Shown here: piece by piece, positions 5,791 through 63,459 of the stretch | Position numbering within the stretch: the stretch's first letter is position 1 | Layout: every line of letters starts with the position of its first letter | The notes under the pieces: model-generated | What the model was told of the DNA's origin: nothing | What the model saw: only the letters and a program-made list of their open reading frames with translations | The model's database searches: none | DNA from: Odontocerum albicorne | Lineage: Eukaryota; Arthropoda; Insecta; Trichoptera; Odontoceridae | DNA length: 64,000 nucleotides | Direction of reading: 5' to 3' | Assembly (NCBI GenBank): GCA_949825065.1 | Contig: OX463849.1 | Coordinates: forward strand, 28,322,043-28,386,042 | Translations under genes and position numbers: made by a program

Positions 5791-6470
5791 CATTAACTTT
5801 GTTTCCTTTTTTCATATAGATAAATTAGTGTTTTATTTTGGTATAGTTTCTATAATGCGTGCATTCAAAGTTACGGTCAATTTAAAGTTAAATCAATAAT
5901 GCTAAATAAACATGGTCTAAATTGTGGCAAAAACATACACACGCTCGCATATTTTTAGATCAGAAACAAAGAAATATGTTTCCTGTTTATTATTCACAAT
6001 TCAGGACAGAGATAAGTCAGTAACAGAGCTAAAATTATAAATTTCGTGACTCATATCATGCTCAACATTACGTGCAGTGCCACATTTGTATAGATTACGT
6101 GCAATGCCACATTGCTCCTATGCATTTTGCAACTTGCAGCCCCCCCACAATACGTAATTAAAAAAAACACTTCACATTTCGGATAATGACTTTGGTAGAT
6201 CATGTATTTCACGCAATGCAGCAAACCACTACAGTTTGCATCTTGCTTTCTTCCCCACAAATGCATCTACAACGTCATTGAATTTCATATTCACTTATGT
6301 CTGATTCTATTGATAATATGGTTAGTTAGTCTGTTTTATTTTAGAGTGGATCTTAAATATGTTTTAGTTTTTTCACTAATAAACTTCATTTTGCGAACCA
6401 GTTTGTTAATCGTGTGCATAAATAATATAGCGTAAATATTTGGATAAACAGTTACAAATTTTTTGTTCAT
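5791..6470. other. no gene seen
   Basis: No exon-like block or transposon end. Carries a C-run (6141-6147) and leads directly into the minisatellite. Confidence 0.4.
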
Positions 6471-7514
6471 TATTAGTTGAAACTGTAGCATTGAACAGTC
6501 GAGGTTATCATTATATTTTAAATATGAATAAAGTGAATGCATTCTTCCATAAAACATTATTAGTTGAAACTGTAGCATTGAACAGTCGAGGTTATCATTA
6601 TATTTTAAATATGAATAAAGTGAATGCATTCTTCCATAAAACATTATTAGTTGAAACTGTAGCATTGAACAGTCGAGGTTATCATTATATTTTAAATATG
6701 AATAAAGTAAATGCATTCTTCCATAAAACATTATTAGTTGAAACTGTAGCATTGAACAGTCGAGGTTATCATTATATTTTAAATATGAATAAAGTGAATG
6801 CATTCTTCCATAAAACATTATTAGTTGAAACTGTAGCATTGAACAGTCGAGGTTATCATTATATTTTAAATATGAATAAAGTAAATGCATTCTTCCATAA
6901 AACATTATTAGTTGAAACTGTAGCATTGAACAGTCGAGGTTATCATTATATTTTAAATATGAATAAAGTGAATGCATTCTTCCATAAAACATTATTAGTT
7001 GAAACTGTAGCATTGAACAGTCGAGGTTATCATTATATTTTAAATATGAATAAAGTAAATGCATTCTTCCATAAAACATTATTAGTTGAAACTGTAGCAT
7101 TGAACAGTCGAGGTTATCATTATATTTTAAATATGAATAAAGTGAATGCATTCTTCCATAAAACATTATTAGTTGAAACTGTAGCATTGAACAGTCGAGG
7201 TTATCATTATATTTTAAATATGAATAAAGTAAATGCATTCTTCCATAAAACATTATTAGTTGAAACTGTAGCATTGAACAGTCGAGGTTATCATTATATT
7301 TTAAATATGAATAAAGTAAATGCATTCTTCCATAAAACATTATTAGTTGAAACTGTAGCATTGAACAGTCGAGGTTATCATTATATTTTAAATATGAATA
7401 AAGTGAATGCATTCTTCCATAAAACATTATTAGTTGAAACTGTAGCATTGAACAGTCGAGGTTATCATTATATTTTAAATATGAATAAAGTGAATGCATT
7501 CTTCCATAAAACAT
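6471..7514. repeat. 87-bp minisatellite, 12 copies
   Basis: Twelve almost identical 87-bp units in perfect register (12 x 87 = 1,044 bp), each beginning near ttagttgaaactgtagcatt. The main variant is one base in the motif aaagtRaatgc: units 1 to 12 read G,G,A,G,A,G,A,G,A,A,G,G, so the middle has a two-unit (174-bp) higher-order period. Because 87 is a multiple of 3 and the unit is stop-free in one frame on each strand, both strands show long open frames (360 and 392 codons). These are by-products of the repeat. No known protein repeat is recognised. Confidence 0.97.
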
Positions 7515-7784
7515 TCATCTAAATCGTTCATGTACATATTTCTATAACCTATTTATGAATCTTTAGGAGTTCCTGTTAGCAAATGCATCTCTGACTATGT
7601 GAAATAAAATTTTGGTATTATTGGAGAAAATCAATGCATAGTCACATATTTTGATGTCAACGTGTTGAAATATAAATTTAATTAAAATTTATTCAACACT
7701 GATAAATAATTTGTTTTTTTACATTTACTTTGAAGCGCATGTATTCATTCATACCATGATGCTTTTTCGTCATGATGGTACGAG
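7515..7784. other. no gene seen
   Basis: Unique-looking AT-rich flank of the minisatellite without coding features. Confidence 0.35.
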
Positions 7785-11072: not shown

Positions 11073-12404
11073 CGAGGCATATCCAGAAAGTAAGTGTACT
11101 GAATTTTTGTAGGTTACAATTTTTTTTATTTAAACAAAAAAATTACGTGGTTACCGTAGTACATATGTAAGCTATTTTTCGACATGGTCGCCATTCCTCT
11201 CAATGCAGGTGGTGAAGCGGGGTATTAACTTTTTGATGCCTTCCTCGAAGTAGTTTCCCGCCAACCCCTCCGTCCACTTCTCCACCTCCTCCTTTACCTC
11301 CTCGTCGGTTGAAAACCTTTTTTCACCCATGTGCAGCTTCAGGGAGGTAAAGAGATAGTAATCTGAAGGTGCTAGGTCAGGGGAATGCGCGGGATGGTTC
11401 AGGACATCCCATTTAAACGAGGTGAGCAGTTCCTTCGTGGCGTTGGCCGTGTGTGGTCTGGCATTGTCGTGCAGCAGGCAGACTCCCTTTGTCAGCATGC
11501 CTCTCCTCTTGTTCTGAATCGCCCTCCGCAATTTTTTTAGGGTCTCACAGTATCTTGCAGAGTTGATGGTCTTCCCTTGAGGCATACATTCAATTAAAAT
11601 TATGCCTTGACAGTCCCAAAACACGGATGCCATGATTTTCTTGGCTGAAATTGTGGTTTTGAGCTTTTTGGCGGAGGGTGAAGAGGTGTGACGCCACTGT
11701 TGAGACTGCCTTTTGGTTTCAGGCGTGTAGTGTGCAACCCAAGTTTCATCTCCAGTAACGATGAAGCGGAGAAATTCATCTCCATGGAGTTTGCAGCGCC
11801 TCAAAAACTCTTGCCCGGCCTCCACTCGATTCAACTTGTGTTGGTCTGTCAGCTGTTTTGGGACCCACCTCGCGGACAGTTTCCGATATCTGAGGGTTTC
11901 TGTGATGGTTTCGTGTAGTAGAGATCTGGAGATTTGCAGAAACATTGCAGAAAGTTCATCCACAGTCAATCTGCGATCGTCACGGAGCGCATTTTCGATT
12001 TTTTCCACAATTTCGTCAGTCACAATTGAAGGTCTTCCGCTCCTCTGATCATCATGCACAGACGTACGACCGTTTTTAAACTCGCGACACCACTTGTACA
12101 CACTCGTACGATTCATAGCTTTATCACCATATGCAGTTTTCACCTCGTTATAAACCTCAACCGGAGGTTTTCCCTTGCAAACGAGATAACGGATGACGCC
12201 GCGTATTTCGCACTTGGCGGGAGATTGGATTGACATTTTTCACGAAACGTGTTGTCGCGTCGACACTTCTCAACGTACTGACCTCGAACCGGTCTCGTTG
12301 CGGAGGGGAAGGGTCAGGCTACACGGAAGTGTAGCCAACATGTCGAAAATAAAATCCATCCGGTCGTGAGAGCCTCAGTACACTTACTTTCTGGATACGC
12401 CTCG
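11073..12404 (-). mobile_element. mariner element, apparently intact
   Basis: Inverted ends beginning cgaggcatatccagaaagta (11073) and, reverse-complemented, cgaggcgtatccagaaagta (ending 12404), bordered by TA at 11071-11072 and 12405-12406. It is 1,332 bp long with one uninterrupted transposase gene. It is related to the deleted copy at 49260-50181, which has similar ends (ccagaaagtaaagaacg) and protein. Confidence 0.96.
11172..12236 (-). CDS. mariner transposase, intact 354 aa
   Basis: This protein would cut and paste its own element in the nucleus. It is a full-length mariner transposase: N-terminal paired helix-turn-helix DNA-binding region (about 1-115, with SVYKWCREFKNGRTSVHDDQ near 45-64), the linker motif WVPKQLT (124-130, variant of WVPHEL), and a DDE/D domain with Asp163 (VTGDETW), Asp257 (LLHDNARPH) and Asp292 (APSDYYLF). 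The spacing Asp257-Asp292 is 34 residues, the classical DD34D arrangement. The start at 12236 follows the element's short 5' region and the stop (TAG) lies about 100 bp inside the other end. No frameshift or stop is present, unlike every other mariner here. Whether it is expressed or active cannot be seen. Confidence 0.95.
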   Translation of the reverse strand: MSIQSPAKCEIRGVIRYLVCKGKPPVEVYNEVKTAYGDKAMNRTSVYKWCREFKNGRTSVHDDQRSGRPSIVTDEIVEKIENALRDDRRLTVDELSAMFLQISRSLLHETITETLRYRKLSARWVPKQLTDQHKLNRVEAGQEFLRRCKLHGDEFLRFIVTGDETWVAHYTPETKRQSQQWRHTSSPSAKKLKTTISAKKIMASVFWDCQGIILIECMPQGKTINSARYCETLKKLRRAIQNKRRGMLTKGVCLLHDNARPHTANATKELLTSFKWDVLNHPAHSPDLAPSDYYLFTSLKLHMGEKRFSTDEEVKEEVEKWTEGLAGNYFEEGIKKLIPRFTTCIERNGDHVEK

Positions 12405-12856: not shown

Positions 12857-14142
12857 CGAGGGCGGTCCGATAAGTACTTAGCCTCACCGCCCAATAGCAC
12901 CACTATCGCAAGAGCAATTTTTTATCGCGTAGTACATTCTCGTTGACAGCTACTGTCAAAATTTCAGCCGAATCAGACGCGTAGTTTTGTTTTGACCGCA
13001 TGTGGAAGCGAGCGTGTCCGCGGATTTGAGAAAAATGGAAAAAGAGCAAAATCGGTCGGTGATTCGATTCTTGTTTTTAAAAGGGAAATCGCGCAGCGAA
13101 ATCAAAGAGCGCTTGGATGCTGTGTACGGTGACTCTTCTGCTTGGATGGCGACCGTCAAAAATTGGTTTAACGAGTTTCAACGTGGTCGCATGTCGGTTT
13201 TTGATGAGCCATGCCCAGGTGCCCCGAAAACGGCTACCACAGAGGATAACGTGACAAAAATCCATGATCTCGATTGGCAGACCACGATTGGCAGACCGCC
13301 GATTGAAGGTGCGCGAGATAGCTGAGACAGTAGGCATCTCAAAAGACTGCGTGGGTCATATCCTGCATGAAGTATTGGGCATGAGAAAGCTGTCGGCACG
13401 ATGGGTGCTGCGTTGGCTCACTCCGGACAAGCGCAACCGTGAGACCACTTCAGAGCAGTGTTTGACGATGTTTAAGCGCAATCCGAAGGAATTTCTGCGT
13501 CGTTTCATGACCGTCGACGAAACATGGATACACTGGTACACACCCGAGACCAAGGAACAGTCGAAACAGTGGACTTCACCCGGCGAACGTGCTCCGAATT
13601 AGGCGAAGACTGTCCTATCGGCCGGAAAGGTGATGGCCACCGTTTTCTGGGATTCAAAAGGTGTGATCTACATCGACTTCCTGGAGAAAGGCAAAACGGT
13701 CACAGGGCTCTACTATGCCGAATTATTGGGCCGATTCGACGCCGAATTGCAGAAAAGACGGCCCCATTTGGCGAAGAAAAAAGTGCTCTTCCATCATGAC
13801 AACGCACCGGCTCACACCTCCGCCGTCGCCACGGCCAAATTGGTAGAATTAGGCTACGAACTGCTGCCCCATCCACCGTATTTGGCCCCGTGCGACTTCT
13901 TTTTGTTTCCAAATTTGAAAAAGTCACCAGGCAGAAATTTGAGTCGAATGAGGTTATCGCCGCCACGGAGGCCTACTTTGCAGACCTCCAGAAAACGTAT
14001 TTTTCAGACGGGTTAAAGAAATTGGAGCATCGCTGGGTCAAGTGTATCGAACTCAAAGGAGATTATGTTGAGAAATAAATCGCCACTTTTCCAAAATTTT
14101 TGTTATTCTTTTGTAGGCTAAGTACTTATCGGACCAAGCTCG
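12857..14142 (+). mobile_element. mariner element, third lineage (dead)
   Basis: Inverted ends cgagggcggtccgataagta (12857) and its imperfect complement tacttatcggaccaagctcg (ending 14142). TA follows the right end, while the left flank is AA, so the target duplication has decayed. The transposase has frameshifts. A second, truncated copy is at 33722-34435. Confidence 0.93.
13035..14078 (+). pseudogene. mariner transposase pseudogene
   Basis: The coding trace starts at ATG 13035 (MEKEQNRSVIRFLFLKGKSR) and runs through several frames to VKCIELKGDYVEK before the stop at 14078. Catalytic boxes are visible: TVDETWIHWYTPET, FHHDNAPAHTS and, eroded, LAPCDFFLF. Frame changes occur near 13280, 13600 and 13930. 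The element's own ends survive, so it could only move if another source supplied transposase. Confidence 0.9.
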
Positions 14143-26205: not shown

Positions 26206-47674
<21,469 letters not shown>

Positions 47675-51700: not shown

Positions 51701-54700
51701 TTTTCATCAATTTGCCAATTTCTTCATCGGAGCAAGAAAATTTCATCTTTGCCTTCTGAAGAGTTTCCTGAAGTGTAAAATGATAAATAAGGGTAAATCA
51801 ATTTAGATTTAAAGGATTCAAATAGTTTTTCAGGTTGGAACTACACAATATTTCTACTAGAGACTAACAAGTAATTACATCATCAAGAACACTATGTACA
51901 TGTGAGGTTAAGTAAACCTCATCACTTCTCCTTAACTGCCAAGCATTGTGTACGTGTAGTGAATTGTTGGTGATCAAACAGGAATTCAAAATTCCCTGAT
52001 AATTGTGCGAGTTCAAAATAAATTTCTGCAACATCTTTATTGGAAAGAGTATGAATTTACCCATAGCTCTCTATCCCACATTTTTTTAATAGATATGTTT
52101 GGATATTACGCCTTAAGTCTTAGAAGAGATTTATGCACCTGCTTATACATATACAAATTCCTATTGGGAAAAAAAGCAAACCCTTTGTTGATTCACAGAC
52201 TTGTATTTAAAGTACCTGACAATTGAGTGGGTCAGATCCAGACATGACTATCCCACATTTATCTTGTTTTGAGATAACTGACTTCAAAGTTGCAAATCTA
52301 TTAAAAATTGGTTTATTTTCTGTTGTTTCCAAAATGTAACGGTAGATGTCTGCACTTATTGTGAACTATAAACTCATAATCATGTTTGGTTCTGATAGAA
52401 ATGGGTATAAAGATGTAGCGTATGTGCCTGACTCAAATTTTATATTTTTGTGGGATAGTCGAGTCTGGTTCTGACCCACTCAATTATTGATACCAATGTG
52501 GATTGTTTTTGGTGGTGTATTCACGAACTGAGCTGTTTAGAGCACCACCACTCTTACACAGAACAACCTTGTTGAATGAATTCTGCTCTATAGGTAGTAT
52601 TTTTTAGATGATGGAAGAGTTAAGAAGGATATCGAACGACGTTTAGCAATAGAAAACAAAATCAACTAAAATATATAGTATACTCGGACTGGATAGTATC
52701 AAATCTGCTAAGATGTTCACGACAGTATTTTAATGTATTATTGGGAGTACAAATTAGTTCGGTCCGTTTCCAAAAGATGGCTCTGGCTGTTATGAATGGT
52801 TCATAGTGACAGCCGATTTTGGCGGTTTCAGAGAGGTTAGACATCTGCCAATAATATTCAGTTTATATCGCTTTGAGTTTCATGCAAAAAACTTGTTTTG
52901 TACAGTGTTGAAAATGTCGAATTTTGTGTTAACCAAGCAGGGAGGTTTTAATTTTCTGCTTTAATTGGAAGAAAAGTGCAGCTGAAGCCCATCGAATGCT
53001 TGTCGAAGTTTATGGTGACGCTGCTCCAACTGATAAATCATGTAAGGAATGGTTTCGAAGTTTTAAGGATGGAGATTTCAGCGTCGAAGACAAGCCTCGC
53101 TCTGGACAGCCAAAAAAATTCGAGGACAAAGAATTAGAGGCATTACTCGAAGAAGATCAGAGTCAAACGCAAGAGGAGCTTGCAGAATCATTGGGAGTGA
53201 CTCAACAAGCCGTTTCCGTATGATTGAGAGCCATGGGAATGATTCAAAAACAAGGAAATTGGGTGCCTTATGAACTGAAACCGAGAGACGTTGAAAGGCG
53301 ATTTTTCACTTGCGAGCAGCTGATTCAAAGGCAACAAAGAAAAGGTTTTTTGCATCGGATTGTAACTGGAGATGAGAAGTGGATATTCTACGACAACCCC
53401 AAGAAGAAAAAATACTACGCTAAGCCCGGTCAATCGTTGCCATCGACCTCAACATCAACACCAAAACCGAACATACATGGTTCGAAGATCATGCTCTGTA
53501 TCTGGTGGGACCAAAGGAGTGTTGTTTACTAAAAATACTACGCTAAGCCCGGTCAATCGTTGCCATCGACCTCAACATCAACACCAAAACCGAACATACA
53601 TGGTTCGAAGATCATGCTCTGTATCTGGTGGGACCAAAGGAGTGTTGTTTACTATGAGGTGCTGAAACCTGGCGATTCCATTACGGGCGATCGGTATCGG
53701 CTACAATTATTTAGTTTGAGCCGTGCATTGCGAGAAAAACGGCCGGAATACGAGCAAAGACGTGATAAAGTTATTCTTCTTCATGACAACGCTCGGCCTC
53801 ATGTCGCAAAAGTTGTAAAAAAGTATTTGGAAACGCTCAAATGGAATGTTTTACCGCACCCGCCGTATTCCCCGGACATTGCTTCTTCTGATTACTAGTT
53901 GTTCCGAAGGATGCAGCACGATTTGGCAGGTCACCGGTTCACTTCTTTCGTAGAAACCGAAAATTGGCTCCAAACTTGGATTGCCTCAAAAGACGAGTCA
54001 TTTTTTCGAGATAGAATTCGAAAATTGCCCGAGAGATGGGAAAAAGTAGTAGCCAGCGATGGACAATACTTTAATTGATCTGTTCATTCATTTTGTTTAG
54101 AAATAAATGCATTTTTGAACACAAAAAAACGCACCGAACTAATTTGTACACCCAATATTTATAGTTAAGGCATTAACATTGTGGAGGTTTAAAGACATTG
54201 TCATTTGTTTTATCAAACACTGTTTATTCCACTTTTTGTAACGGTATAACCCTACCGGTTTCAAGGCTTTCACCTCATCATCAGGAGCACAAACAAACAA
54301 TTCTTACATATCAGTAGTAACGGAAATAAATTGGACAGATTAGAGGCCCTAGAAATTTCGAAGTCAGTGCATCGAGATGAACATCCGGCAAACACATATA
54401 TTCCAAGAATCTCGCCGCTGCTCGCCGAGGTCGTCCCATGCCTCCCCGATCCGCCAGTCTCCAACCCGAATGTTTACCATTAAAAGTGTATGTCGGTGCC
54501 AGTTCGAACCGAATTCAGTCTTGTTTGTGCTCCCCTGATGATGAGGTGAAAGCCTTGAAACCGGTAGGGTTATACCGTTACAAAAAGTGGAATAAACAAT
54601 GTTTGATAAAACAAATTACAGTATTTTAGTACTAACTTTGACGTTTACATTTCACTTCCATACATCAAAGTTAAGTCAAAAGATTGAAAGGATCTGAATA

Positions 54701-56979: not shown

Positions 56980-57642
56980 AAAAATGTTAATTAATTTTGC
57001 AAAAAAATAGCCACCTTTCTCATTTTATTAAAATAATAAATCATATACAATACAATATGTAAATTAAAAAAAAAAAGAACTCAAGTTTATGATGAAAACA
57101 ATACTTTTTACAAAAATATGGTTTTGAAACCAAAAACATGTTTAATTTAGTGAATCTTTTGTAAAAATAATTCTATTGATCGATATCTGACTCTTAACTT
57201 TTCTTTCCTACGTATATAACTCGAAATTTTAGAAATATATAGTGTTTTGGGTCGTTTTTGTGTGTTATTATATTCGAAATATATCTACTCTGAATATTAA
57301 AACCCCGCGACTTATATCATATACTAAAAAACAAAATAAAAATTCAACGAATAATACAATAAAAACTCTATAATTATGTTTCACTTGATTCCGATATTAA
57401 AAATAGTTGGAGCCTTGTTTTTCTAAACTCTTCAAACGTCAATGTCAAAAAAATGTGTATGTCGGAATTGTCAATATTTTTATCATAATAATAATATTTT
57501 CATTAGAAATTCGCGTGACATTACAGAATATTTGTGTGAAACTCATCTCCATTAATACTTTAATATGTTTAAAAACTATATCCAGTGATTCATGCATTAG
57601 TTTTATAAATATCACGAAATCTGCAGCAACACGCTGTTAAAT
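56980..57642. promoter_or_regulatory. presumed shared promoter region, SAMTOR and minus-strand gene
   Basis: 663 bases between the first recognised exon of the minus-strand gene and the SAMTOR start. No other gene or repeat is seen. A bidirectional promoter is inferred from the head-to-head arrangement only; no core motif can be asserted. Long poly-A (57067-57077) and AT-rich stretches. Confidence 0.35.
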
Positions 57643-60600
57643 ATGGCTTCAAAAGAACATAAAAATTGTGCCAATATTATAAAAAGGACTCACTCTTCTC
57701 TGAGGAAACTCTCTAATAAGATCGGGTTCAACGATGCTTGGAGTAGACATTTGTCTGATGAGGATACATTAAAGATTTATGCAGAATCGATGAAAACATT
57801 AGGAGCGGAGCATTGGGAGAAAAACGCTAGTGATCCAACTAAATCGGCTTCTTCGAGAATATCCTGGATTGCTGATTATTGTTATAAATATTTCTTTGAA
57901 AAGGGAATTTCAATTTATCGTTCTAAAGAAGAAACTATCGCTAATAAATTGAGGATTGCACTAGGTAGCCCTCTTGAAAAAAATATTGAAAAACTGCAAG
58001 TTTTAGATGTTGGCAGCTGCTATAATCCTTTCAAATTTTACGAATACATGAATGTTCTGCCTATAGATTTATGTCCCGCTGAAGAGAGTGTTTTCAAATG
58101 TGATTTTCTTGCTGTGGAACTTGGCGATGACTTAAAAAGTGAAGAGAACACCGTGAAACAATTAGTGCGGAACCATTTCGACGTTGTGATATTTAGTCTA
58201 TTATTAGAATATCTGCCAAATTCTGTTTTAAGGAAAATATGTTGCCATAAAGCTTTTAACCTTTTAAAACATGAAGGTTTATTAATAACTAGCTGTACCC
58301 AGCCACGCGTTGCTGTGGCTCAGTCTGGTTAAATGTAAAAGAAAGAAAAGAGAAAGCACACGTTTCAATTGTGTTTAATTTCACAATGCGTATACAATAT
58401 TTTTGATGTCTTGTATACAATCTGGGTATACAATATTTTTGATGTCTTTCAGGCACTCTCAGTCTGTCGCGTTTATCACCGTGCTTGCAAATGATCGCGT
58501 CACTCCAAGAGGTCAATTCACGATATGATTTGAATTCAAATCAAAGATCGATTGCACTGAAAAAGAAGAAAAATAGTTATAACAAAAACATATAAAATTG
58601 CGAAACATTAAAAAACGAACTCAATAATATTGTTAAGTTCGGATACATCTTTGTTCTTGCCGCCAACAATAGCTCACTTAGCTAATCGTGATTCTTATAA
58701 TTGATTTGAATATAGGGAAATACTTTTTCAAACAATTCCTCTTTTAACGTCACTAAATTGCATAAGTTCTATTACCGTCATTTACAACTGCATCTCGCAA
58801 ATCAACGTATACTTCAGAGCGAAGCTTGGTCCGATTCAAACGGATGAATATCAAATTTTATCAACTTTAATATAGGCCTCGATTGTAATAAATAGCAAGT
58901 TATTTAGGTAAATACATCACATAAAACTAATAATAAATCTTGTTACAAATTAGCAAAAATGGGCAGTTCGTTAAAAATCTAATGTGACATTTGTTAAAAG
59001 TTAGTTGCATGAAACTTTTAATAATTCAAATGTATAAAACATACACAGATATATACCATTAATTCAAATGAAAATCAATAATAACAAAAATAACAAAAAC
59101 CGGTTTAAAAAACCCGAATTGAAAGATATTTAATATTCGGAATTAAAATAAATTGAAATCTATATTGCGTGTGTTGCCCTTACATTCAACAGGGGGCGCT
59201 CTTATTATATTGTCTGTTTTATATACAACTGTTTATTAAATTTCACAATCCTTTTGAATAAACAATATTTTTTGTTAAAAATCAATTCTTCTTTTGACGT
59301 CACTAAGTTGCAGAAGTTATGAGGCAATGAAATTCGTCCTGAGATCAGATCAACTGGTACCTTTCCATTCCCGATTTCCAGCAATTGATGTGAGAATATC
59401 TCAGCTGATCGATCGTTTTGCAACTGGACATGCATATTTGTAGTTAATTTCAACGTCTTTACGTGTCGCCACAAAATAGAGTATTTCAGGCAAGCATTTA
59501 TTTCATCCGCCGGTGTCGATCGAGGAATTACAGGTAATGTTTGCCTGAAATCTCCTGCAAGCAATATAAATTCGTTCCCAAATGGTCTGATGTTTCCACG
59601 CAAATCTCGCAATGATCGATCAAGAGCTTCGAGCGACTTTTTGTGTGCCATTGTGCATTCATCCCAAACAATAAGTTTGCATTTCTGCAATACTTTTCCC
59701 ATGCCGGATGCTTTGGAAACGTTGCACGTGGGAGTTTCAATGAATCGCATGTTCAATGGCAATTTCAAAGCGGAATGAGCAGTTCTTCCACCTGGTAGAA
59801 GTGTCGCAGCTATTCCTGACGACGCAAGAGCTAAGGCTATGCCATTTTGGGATCGAATTGCTGCCAGAATCAATCTAATTAGGAACGTTTTACCAGTTCC
59901 TCCTGGCGCATCTAAGAAGAAGATTTCTCCAACCCCTTTATTGACAGTCATTAGAAAGTCAGTATAATAAAAATTAGTAATTAAAACGTCAGTTGAGAGA
60001 AAACAATTTTTCGATTTATAAAAAAAATCAACAGCTTACCATTTTACAGTTGACAAATTTGCCCCAATACGATGTGCTGGGCTGAAAAAGCTAGGGTGTG
60101 AAAACATCTGGTGTCCCCGTGGCTGGGTTCGCCCTATATTGGTGGGGTGTATCTTGGCCGAAGGGATGCTATTAGATGAGCCCACACCTTTTGATAGCTT
60201 CTGTATATAATGTATTATCTGCAATTTATGTGTTTTAAAAGTGTTATTTAAATATAATCTGGACATACTATGCTGCTATCAATAAACCTATTATTTATTT
60301 ATGTAACAACGTTCAGTAAGAAAAAAGAAAGTTAAAACATATAAAATTGTGAAACATTAAAAAAGGAACTGAGCAGCGTAAAAGTTTGTTTTAATTTTCA
60401 TTCATACAATACATTAGAAAGTCAGTATAATAAAAATTAGTAAATAAAACGTCAGTTTAGAGAAAACAATTTTTCGATTTATAAAAAAAATCAACAGCTT
60501 ACCATTTTACAGTTGACAAATTTGCCCTAATACGATGTGCTGGGCTGAAAAAGCTAGTGTGTGGGCTGCAAAACATCTGTTGTCCCCGTGGCTGGGTTCG

Positions 60601-62707
60601 CCCTATATTGGTGGGGTGTATCTTGGCCGAAGGGATGCTATTAGATGAGCCCAGACCTTTTGATAGCTTCTGTATATAATGTATTATCTGCAATTAATGT
60701 GTTTTAAAAGTGTTATTTAAATATAATCTGGAAATACTATGCTGCTATCAATAAACCTATTATTTATTTATTTATTTATGTAACAACGTTCAGTAAGAAA
60801 AAAGAAAGTTAAAACATATAAAATTGTGAAACATTAAAAAAAGAACTGAGCAGCGTAAAAGTTTGTTTTAATTTTCATTCATACAATACATAAGAAAGTC
60901 AGTATAATAAAAATTAGTAATTAAAACGTCAGTTTAGAGAAAACAATTTTTCGATTTATAAAAAAAATCAACAGCTTACCATTTTACAGTTGACAAATTT
61001 GCCCCAATACGATGTGCTGGGCTGAAAAAGCTAGGGTGTGGGCTGCAAAACATCTGGTGTCCCCGTGGCTGGGTTCGCCCTATATTGGTGGGGTGTATCT
61101 TGGCCGAAGGGATGCTATTAGATGAGCCCAGACTTTTTGATAGCTTCTGTATATAATGTATTATCTGCAATTTATGTGTTTTAAAAGTGTTATTTAAATA
61201 TAATCTGGACATACTATGCTGCTATCAATAAACCTATAATTTATTTATGTAACAACGTTCAGTAAGAAAAAAAGAAAGTTAAAACATATAAAATTGTGAA
61301 ACATTAAAAAAGGAACTGAGCAGCGTAAAAGTTTGTTTTAATTTTCATTTTTTTTGCGATATTTCTACGGGTACTTCTTTCTAATGTACCACCAAATAAT
61401 TTATTTATTTAATTAATGACATAAAAGTGTCTTTATATACAAATGAACATGTGACAGGTTATACAAGTACTTAAAATTATTGACAAATAATACAACTTTA
61501 TCTTAAATTAACATGTGTACTTTTCTTTTTGAAAAAAGTTAGGTTAACTTTTGAAATATGAATCAATAATGAAAGTTTTTCATCAAATATAATTCTTAAG
61601 TCCATTATTTTTTAAACTTACAACTTACCACAACCACTCAAGTCAATTTTATGACAATATAACTATTTTTAATTATTTTTTATGAAGTTTTTTATTAACG
61701 ACGTAAGATCGCGTCACAATGATAATATAAAATGCGTCACAATGATAATATAAAGCTTGGTTCGTGTCTAGAATAAATATATTTACGAAAAAAAAACCTG
61801 TATTATTTATAAAATTTATAAAATATGTATTATATATAAAATTTATTATTTAATATTAAAGATAAAATTATTTTATATTTTATGTATATAGACTTATTTG
61901 AATAAAAATATTCATCACGAAATGTCAAAATAGAATAACTGTCAAAATGTTTGTCAAAATAACTGTCAAAAGGTCAACTGTCAAAATGTTTAGTTGATAA
62001 AATTTATTATTTATGAAATATGTATTAGTTATAAAATTTATGATTTAATATTAAACATAAAATTATTTTATATTTATATTATGTATATAGACTTTATAAA
62101 TATTAATTACGAAACGTCAAATAGAATATGGTCAACTGTCAAAATGAGATTCGTCTTGTCCCCGACAGGTTCGCATAGATATTTCTTTTTGATTTAAAAA
62201 AAAAATTATATACACTGATATATATATATATAAATAAAAATCAAAAAACATTTCCGTTGACGAATATTAACTTTACTCAAAATTTCAAAGCGATCGGTAG
62301 AGAACTTCCGGAGATTAGCTACCAATAATTAACGAACATTTACATTTTTATTTATATAGATTGTTACCCCTGACTCGAAACATGTCGGAGCTAATGCTAA
62401 AATAATGAAAAATTGGAGGTACACATTAGCTCTAATGGGATTTTCGAGAATCCACTATGAAAAATTGCCTTTTCTCCATTGTCTCGTGTTTAGGAAATCT
62501 TTAAACTTTCAAATAGCAAAAAGATGGGCTGATCTTTATAAAGAGGAGTACATGCAAAATGAAATATTTATTCCTCAAGATTTCCAAACCCTTAACCCTG
62601 ATTCAGAAGAGACAAAAGGACTTGATTTGGATTTACTTGAAAATAATTCAGAGCTGACTGTTGATTTATTTAATGAACTCCCTCGAGAGGATGATTTTTC
62701 ATTTTGA
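57643..62707 (+). CDS. SAMTOR homologue (SAM sensor upstream of mTORC1), split by a Helitron
   Basis: SAMTOR has a class I methyltransferase fold; it binds S-adenosylmethionine and inhibits mTORC1 through GATOR1/KICSTOR when methionine is low. Part 1, 57643-58288, gives residues 1-215: SAM-binding motif I LDVGSCYNPF (near 124-133), the acidic site in SVFKCDFLAVEL, and FDVVIFSLLLEYLPNS. Part 2, 62361-62707, continues in the same codon: GLLII-VTPDSKHVG across the break, then KNWRYTLALMGFSRIHYEKL, IFIPQDFQTLNPDSEE and the stop. Joined length is 330 residues, with no other lesion. Between the parts lies the Helitron 58289-62360. Without splicing, translation would read 14 foreign residues and stop at 58332, losing about 115 residues. 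The start at 57643 is the first Met and begins the conserved N-terminus. Confidence 0.9.
58289..58335 (-). other. Helitron 3' terminus (hairpin plus CTAG)
   Basis: Read on the minus strand: gccacagcaacgcgtggc can fold back on itself (gccac ... gtggc) a few bases before the final CTAG, the usual Helitron 3' signal. In this orientation it supplies the first codons read after the break in SAMTOR. Confidence 0.8.
58640..59951 (-). pseudogene. Helitron helicase (PIF1-like), broken into two pieces
   Basis: A helicase of the RepHel protein of Helitrons. 59951-59205 encodes Walker A FLDAPGGTGKTFLIRL, LALASSGIAATLLPGGRTAH, Walker B region IVWDECTMAHKKSLEALDRS and FILLAGDFRQTLPVIPR, then CNLVTSKEEL. 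The continuation is at about 58775-58640 (CNLVTLKEELFEKVFPYIQI, NYKNHD, LSELLLAARTK), after an insertion of about 520 bases that partly repeats CNLVT...KEEL. The N-terminal end at 59951 is replaced by the tandem array. No catalytic Rep part remains. Confidence 0.88.
59950..61350. repeat. three tandem copies of an approximately 470-bp unit inside the Helitron
   Basis: Copies start at 59950, 60412 and 60889 with tagaaagtcagtataataaa and end gcgtaaaagtttgttttaat. Unit lengths are about 461-477 bp, varying by small indels and the number of ttta repeats. Each contains a GC-richer core (cccgtggctgggttcgccct, attggtggggtgtatcttgg) and aataaacctattattta, which looks like a retroelement 3' end. Minus-strand frames within the units repeat three times but are not supported as genes. 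Confidence 0.92.
61393..61513 (-). repeat. LINE-type 3' end repeat inside the Helitron
   Basis: About 90% identical to 36188-36315 in NOC3L intron 6 and in the same orientation. It shows that the Helitron carries passenger retroelement sequence. Confidence 0.6.
61514..62340. other. remaining Helitron interior near its 5' end
   Basis: Very AT-rich with internal repetition: 61790-61990 and 61990-62130 share taaaatttattatttaat, aaaattattttatattt and aactgtcaaaatg blocks. No coding sequence. Confidence 0.5.
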
Positions 62708-62760
62708 AAAGTGCTCATCAATTTTTTATCCGTTTCATATTTTTATTATATATAAATCTT

Positions 62761-62766
62761 AATAAA
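62761..62766 (+). terminator. SAMTOR polyadenylation signal
   Basis: AATAAA 54 bases after the SAMTOR stop codon (62705-62707). Confidence 0.55.
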
Positions 62767-62962
62767 CATCGCAACACTGACATACCATATATTTACACAT
62801 AAAATTCGAAAGTTAAAAAATTAAAGAAATGAGACTCACTATTAGTTGAATGTTGATGAAATGGTAATTGCAAAACTGATACCTTAATATGTAATATTAT
62901 TGTTATAGACAGGTTAAGTGTAACTGTCGCATATTCATAAAGAAAAAGCAAAAAAAAAAATT

Positions 62963-63459
62963 AAGGCTAAGGCCACACCAAAGTGGGTGCTACGTGACTA
63001 ATATGACTTCATGCTTGGCCACACCAAAGTGCTTCGCACAAATTCATTTGACATTTGGGAGCGGTTGAGTCAACAAACGATGCCACTCTCAAAATAAACC
63101 AATTTCATTACAACTTACCATCTTTATTTACTTCCTGTGCAACTTCATTCCAAAGTGATTTTATTACAGGTACATTTTTGTATAATTTGCTCGATGGGTT
63201 CCACAAAGGCTCCCTTTTATACACAGCTGTTATTAAAATTTCCTACATCTTCTAAAATCACTTGGTGACACAATAAAATTAACCACGTTTTCGCTAGGAG
63301 ACTCACGAGGTGACTAGTCGTCATGTAGTGTGGCGCGAAGCGTGCAGTGTGGCCATTGCGATAGTATGCGGTGCGTTGGTTCGCTAGGATATGCCACCTA
63401 GCTCGCAGCGTAGCTTTAAGCACCAAGCGAGGCTCCTACCTGTGTGGCCGAGGCCTAAA
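62963..63459. mobile_element. MITE-like element with inverted ends
   Basis: Left end aaggctaaggccacaccaaa and right end tgtgtggccgaggcctaaaa are imperfect inverses. Internal subterminal repeats (ggccacaccaaagtg twice at the left; cgcgaagcg, gcgtgcagtgtggcc at the right) support a MITE of about 500 bp. Target duplication not resolved. Confidence 0.6.

Follow-up and report, generated by a model that had tools for sequence, protein, structure and literature searches.

The interrupted SAMTOR gene

The DNA analyzed here is a 64-kb stretch of the Odontocerum albicorne genome (G000:C17:28322043-28386042, hereafter the window), taken from an assembly of 1.287 Gb in 1,241 contigs. It contains a gene for the conserved protein SAMTOR, which in mammals acts as a sensor of a methionine-derived metabolite, and within codon 216 of this gene lies a 4,072-bp insert, a non-autonomous Helitron in antisense orientation (Table 1). 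The SAMTOR frame opens with an ATG at 57643, and codon 215 (ATA) finishes at 58287. Codon 216 is split, its first base being 58288 and reading resuming at 62361, and the stop codon is at 62705-62707. A scripted join of the two flanks gave 993 bases, that is, 330 codons and a stop, with zero frameshifts or internal stops.

At E <= 0.001, the joined protein had 937 protein matches (the best 120 of them listed). Its matches in PDB comprised four distinct solved sequences, all named SAMTOR, the top one being 7vkq (E = 1.5e-77). It also matched the Pfam family Bmt2 (PF11968) with 27.9 bits (cut-off 20), indicating homology to the S-adenosylmethionine (SAM)-binding methyltransferase fold. The N-terminal half alone (215 residues) matched the same family (27.1 bits, cut-off 20), and the C-terminal half alone (115 residues) matched no Pfam family at E <= 0.1. 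Searched separately against the solved proteins, the two halves covered residues 3-228 (E = 8e-46) and 229-302 (E = 1.1e-23) of 7vkq_A, residues 4-160 and 161-234 of 7yri, and residues up to 274 and from 275 of 9o5d. Because these matches abut, nothing was lost or duplicated at the break. The chains 7vkq and 9o5d, which we take to be the fly and human SAMTOR, respectively, belong to the same protein family and are colinear with the joined protein across the junction, whereas the present gene has 4,072 bp inserted in codon 216.

In a 40-row alignment of the window protein and 39 homologs chosen from the 120 listed, the junction was ungapped. All columns invariant in the other 39 rows were kept (36/36 in the upstream half and 18/18 in the downstream half). 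Among columns conserved at 90% or more, the window protein keeps 51 of 54 upstream and 32 of 32 downstream; at 80% or more, these numbers are 68 of 75 and 46 of 48. In a 21-row tree, it paired with P0001 (59% identical) and was found outside an 11-row group with eight named members, all of them butterflies or moths. The next nearest protein by path was that of Arctopsyche, presumably a caddisfly, and the fork joining it and the window SAMTOR was not resolved. This placement would suit either a caddisfly or a moth of an early branch as the host.

These data also bear on whether the locus might be a dead duplicate or retrocopy, with an intact SAMTOR elsewhere. The frame is intronless and an A11 run is present ~190 bp after a poly(A) signal, as might be expected of a retrocopy. 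However, the A-run is not at the poly(A) signal, no direct repeat of more than 10 bases is shared by 57300-57643 and 62705-63000, the window protein retains each of the 54 columns that do not vary among the other 39 rows, and the end branch of the window SAMTOR (0.43) is no longer than that of its nearest relative (0.51). Moreover, when the same assembly was searched for a second intact SAMTOR with the N-terminal half as the query, one candidate and one match were obtained, at the present locus only. A dead copy is thus very unlikely.

Table 1. Features of the interrupted SAMTOR locus (window positions)
Feature	Position	Strand	Basis
SAMTOR coding sequence, codons 1-215 and base 1 of codon 216	57643..58288	+	Open frame; PDB and Pfam matches
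SAMTOR coding sequence, remainder of codon 216 through stop	62361..62707	+	Open frame from 62360; PDB match
Non-autonomous Helitron, 4,072 bp, antisense to SAMTOR, between host A and T	58289..62360	-	Termini, empty site, copies in assembly
Helitron 5' terminus, TCTATATAAATAAAAATG; plus-strand reading ends acceptor-like, ...TATAG then A	62343..62360	-	First 24 bases same in three other full copies
Helitron 3' end, hairpin core AGCCAC/GTGGCT and terminal CTAG	58289..58324	-	Last 20 bases same in 10/10 copies read
Helicase fragment, 276-residue frame, PIF1 domain	59205..60035	-	PIF1 PF05970, E = 1.7e-59
Three tandem units (463 + 477 + 461 bp, 97.8-98.9% identical), part of element	59949..61349	.	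Other full copies align along the element
Two frame-0 GT donors, 58309 and 58315, the only ones between 58230 and the stop at 58330	58309..58316	+	Approximate weights
Frame-0 AG acceptor at Helitron terminus	62358..62359	+	84.9th percentile of the window's 3,233 AGs, approximate weights

Insertion site and structure of the element

The left flank reads ...TTTATTAATAA to 58288 and is followed by the insert, CTAGCTGTACCC...TTTATATAGA (58289-62360), and by the right flank, TTGTTACCCC, from 62361. Read on the minus strand, the insert begins with TCTATATAAATAAAAATG and finishes with GCTGGGTACAGCTAG (TC...CTAG); in its longer form this end is GGGTACAGCTAG, with a hairpin ahead of it. The insert thus has the 5'-TC and CTRR-3' termini of Helitrons, its target is A/T, and the restored empty site shows no target duplication. 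Comparison of break positions from -6 to +6 revealed that 2 of the 13 yield the same empty site, so that the ends of the insert are fixed within one base.

The 3' hairpin has a 6-bp core stem 12 nt before the element end. A GC-rich 6-bp stem located 2-13 nt upstream of CTAG was observed at one of the 97 CTAG sites in the window, which is the Helitron end, and in order-1 Markov sequences the same combination occurred 0.1 times per 64 kb on average (largest 1, 30 trials). By folding energy alone, the hairpin does not stand out (DNA z = -1.69; of 200 shuffles, 10 fold as well or better); stronger proof of the Helitron comes from the recurrence of the same ends elsewhere in the genome. An Rfam scan gave no matches at gathering scores, and NCBIfam gave no match for the three pieces searched. 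Scans of viral contigs with each of the two Helitron ends yielded 13 stretches per scan. Among the 13 from one scan, which were compared with the element, three contained 16-17-base pattern matches and a fourth a 41-base match at 83%, and these were judged to be due to chance.

Human SAMTOR reportedly has introns, and an ordinary old intron at codon 216 might have been filled later by the Helitron. Such a history has no support in the sequence itself: no remnant of an ordinary intron was detected within the insert, whose ends are exact Helitron ends, no non-Helitron sequence is left between the coding halves, and this Helitron copy has no private substitution (see below). We consider it extremely improbable.

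Inside the element, the best PDB match of the helicase fragment was Helraiser (7lcc, E = 2.2e-36; runner-up 1.2e-12), and the frame has 276 residues in three other full copies as well. No Rep-sized frame was present among element frames of at least 45 codons, and no Rep profile was run over the broken frames. As no frame is long enough for a Rep domain, this copy is classed as non-autonomous. Tandem units of ~470 bp occupy the middle of the element.

Helraiser and Helibat, which are bat Helitrons, likewise have 5'-TC and CTAG-3' ends, a subterminal hairpin, an AT target without duplication and a related helicase (PMC4778049, in excerpt). In contrast to them, the present element is non-autonomous, with a helicase fragment only and three ~470-bp tandem units. 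Lepidopteran Hel-2 shares the 5'-TC/3'-CTAG termini, A/T flanks and 3' hairpin with the present element (PMC4344730, in excerpt). This likeness is one of description, not of sequence. Other lepidopteran Helitrons include silkworm families (PMC3789558), and the present host groups outside the sampled Lepidoptera.

Other copies and the age of the insertion

A search of the assembly with the 200-bp 3' end of the Helitron yielded 1,460 candidates, of which the best 40 were scored. Nine of these 40 had the full score over 200 bp, including the SAMTOR copy and a neighboring copy described below; the number of candidates is therefore not a copy number. We read ten further copies, each taken from the top 13 rows of the 3'-end list, so that they are the most similar ones. 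In all ten, T directly follows the 3' end. The 5' ends, placed assuming equal length, were located in two of the ten, and A precedes both; in the remaining eight stretches (two inside an element and six without a match) they were not located.

The neighboring copy is a second full element of 4,071 bp, which lies 4.26 kb downstream in the same orientation, past the window (66620-70690 in window numbering, L029:2620-6690). It aligns with the SAMTOR copy over 4,071 bases without any substitution and lacks a single base. Its flanks are unlike those of the SAMTOR copy and contain other repeats, and its target is TT on its own strand, a less usual alternative that is also seen for Helraiser (PMC4778049, in excerpt). 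Two further full copies, C7 (4,068 bp) and C22 (4,130 bp), have 28 and 26 substitutions, respectively, relative to the SAMTOR copy, so that full copies span 4,068-4,130 bp. In columns that are gap-free in all four full copies, 16 changes are private to the C7 copy, 13 to the C22 copy and none to the SAMTOR copy; 12 columns unite the two C17 copies against the C7 and C22 copies. The Helitron family is thus young and present in multiple copies in this assembly, and its ends recur precisely at sites unrelated to one another.

A near-identical copy 4.26 kb downstream is a situation in which assemblers can err, and an assembly error could have placed the Helitron into SAMTOR. However, the breakpoints coincide with precise Helitron ends and fall at a valid A/T site within the gene, the two copies have different flanks and a one-base difference, and scaffold C17 spans 45.0 Mb. 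Such an error is highly improbable.

The SAMTOR copy and its neighbor form 4-kb direct repeats that flank the SAMTOR 3' half; unequal recombination between them could delete that half. Remnants of related elements were also seen in this region. An older fragment at 744-1135 of the window (minus strand) resembles a related Helitron interior (85-96% over short pieces), short pieces like the Helitron interior occur on the neighboring stretches L032, L040-L044, L047 and L048, and the Helitron 5' end alone was found twice in L030.

The mutation rate in butterflies is ~3e-9 per site per generation. As the SAMTOR copy has no private change in ~4 kb, the insertion would be fewer than some 250,000 generations old (95%), provided that gene conversion erased no differences. 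We also simulated neutral hits in the downstream half of the gene (345 bp). Seven changes (2.0%) would go without visible damage with a probability of 0.08, and eight (2.3%) with one of 0.05. This age limit is weaker than that from substitutions and is void if the half is still under selection.

An earlier note on this DNA, made from its sequence, had described a SAMTOR frame that runs to 58288 and resumes at 62361 with one shared codon, and flank joining bore this out to the base. Its naming of the gene agrees with the solved SAMTORs and other homologs described above. Its reading of the insert as a 4,072-bp Helitron, TC...CTAG on the minus strand between A and T, is borne out by the termini, the target site, the Helraiser-like helicase and the copies in the same genome. 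The proposed recency of the insertion is likewise supported by the absence of substitutions relative to the neighboring copy and by a downstream half without visible decay.

Effect on the protein

The best explanation, to which we assign a probability of roughly 80%, is a recent Helitron insertion into an uninterrupted SAMTOR frame, most likely with loss of function. The Helitron, which belongs to a non-autonomous family with recent activity, was copied into an AT dinucleotide in codon 216, antisense to the gene and without target duplication, presumably by rolling-circle transposition as in its family. Without joining, the frame runs on into the insert as far as a stop codon at 58330-58332, giving 215 native and 14 foreign residues. 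In the modeled relative P0001 (mean predicted local distance difference test score of 87), the junction corresponds to residues 217/218, inside strand 210-221. On this model, truncation would remove the remainder of the strand together with helix 226-243, strands 245-253 and 256-263, and the later helices. Loss of function is the simplest reading of the interruption. The insertion is too recent for visible decay of the downstream half, so that the allele is probably a segregating or just-fixed null; no second copy of SAMTOR is known in the assembly.

Alternatively, the Helitron might be spliced out as a new intron, with SAMTOR still functional. The antisense 5' terminus provides an acceptor, ...TTTATTTATATAG followed by A, exactly at the insert edge; it is in frame 0 and, by approximate weights, ranks at the 84.9th percentile of 3,233 AGs. 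Two frame-0 donors precede the stop and would keep the frame with the addition of TSCTQPR (58309) or TSCTQPRVA (58315), and the downstream half is conserved (32/32 columns at 90%, 46/48 at 80%). However, by the same approximate weights these donors are weak (-7.4 and -3.2 bits where the best possible is 9.3; 30th and 71st GT percentile). Exact restoration of the native protein would require an AC-AG intron, and no GT-AG pair restores it. On the P0001 model, the 7 or 9 extra residues would fall inside a core strand. In addition, 14 plus-strand AATAAA motifs in the insert could end the transcript early, although this motif is common by chance in AT-rich DNA. We consider splicing with retained function unlikely. 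A broader version is suggested by the 5' terminus, which is identical in four full copies and reads backwards as an acceptor one base before host DNA: in antisense orientation the whole family might serve as a ready-made intron, an exon would survive with a short in-frame addition, and SAMTOR would be an intron caught at birth. This idea is quite improbable.

Several points weigh against a recent loss-of-function insertion. Identity with the neighboring copy could partly reflect gene conversion, and an intact downstream half is also expected if SAMTOR still works. A fair acceptor sits exactly at the insert edge, and splicing around the insert may occur. The search for a second gene used the N-terminal half as its query, and a divergent SAMTOR paralog may be present elsewhere. 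Finally, the allele could be heterozygous or fixed. The N-terminal half of an empty allele was not found on a separate contig of the assembly, but this is uninformative on zygosity if alternative haplotypes were purged, as they may have been.

Other features of the window

A stop-free mariner-type transposase frame of 355 residues is located at 11172-12239 (minus strand), and interrupted or partial frames of this type at 45551-46582 and 13603-14013 (both plus strand). Twelve 87-bp tandem units, 99% alike, occupy 6468-7515 and are open in one frame on either strand, and two identical 123-bp tandem units were found at 53408-53654. The frame at 35738-36133 (plus strand) is weakly similar to nucleolar complex protein NOC3, with an E of 0.0072 that falls short of the curated cut-off. 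A run of N is present at 309-508.

Significance

Gene disruption by a transposon is a known type of mutation, and the present case is unusually clean and very recent. In plants, Helitrons reportedly disrupt genes in insertion mutants such as maize sh2-7527 and morning glory pearly-s; by comparison, the present case concerns an insect coding frame and is known from sequence alone. In the literature library searched, no publication contained both SAMTOR and Helitron. Publications on Helitron exon insertions were, by title, mostly on plants or human among the matches listed, and those on Helitrons and caddisflies, also judged by title, contained nothing on the present subject.

The earlier note also called the interrupted gene nutrient-sensing. 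Its identity as SAMTOR holds, but whether SAMTOR acts as a sensor in insects is disputed (PMC10957897, PMC10253371, both in excerpt). Fly SAMTOR is described as not acting in the TORC1 pathway, flies as having no KICSTOR, and SAMTOR-null larvae on a methionine-free diet as still inhibiting dTORC1 (PMC10957897, in excerpt); strong SAMTOR RNA interference was lethal, both body-wide and in several tissues (PMC10253371, in excerpt). Thus, more work would be needed before the insertion could be described as the loss of a nutrient sensor, and SAM binding and GATOR1-KICSTOR interaction are putative for the present SAMTOR.

What is new here is a young, multicopy Helitron family in the same assembly and a clean case of a Helitron soon after its insertion into a conserved insect coding frame, where both the ends and the empty site are exact and a near-identical copy lies nearby. 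If heterozygous, the insertion would be ordinary mutational load; if spliced, it would show a route of intron gain. If fixed, it would be a natural SAMTOR knock-out, testing the need of insects for SAMTOR, which is disputed by published fly work.

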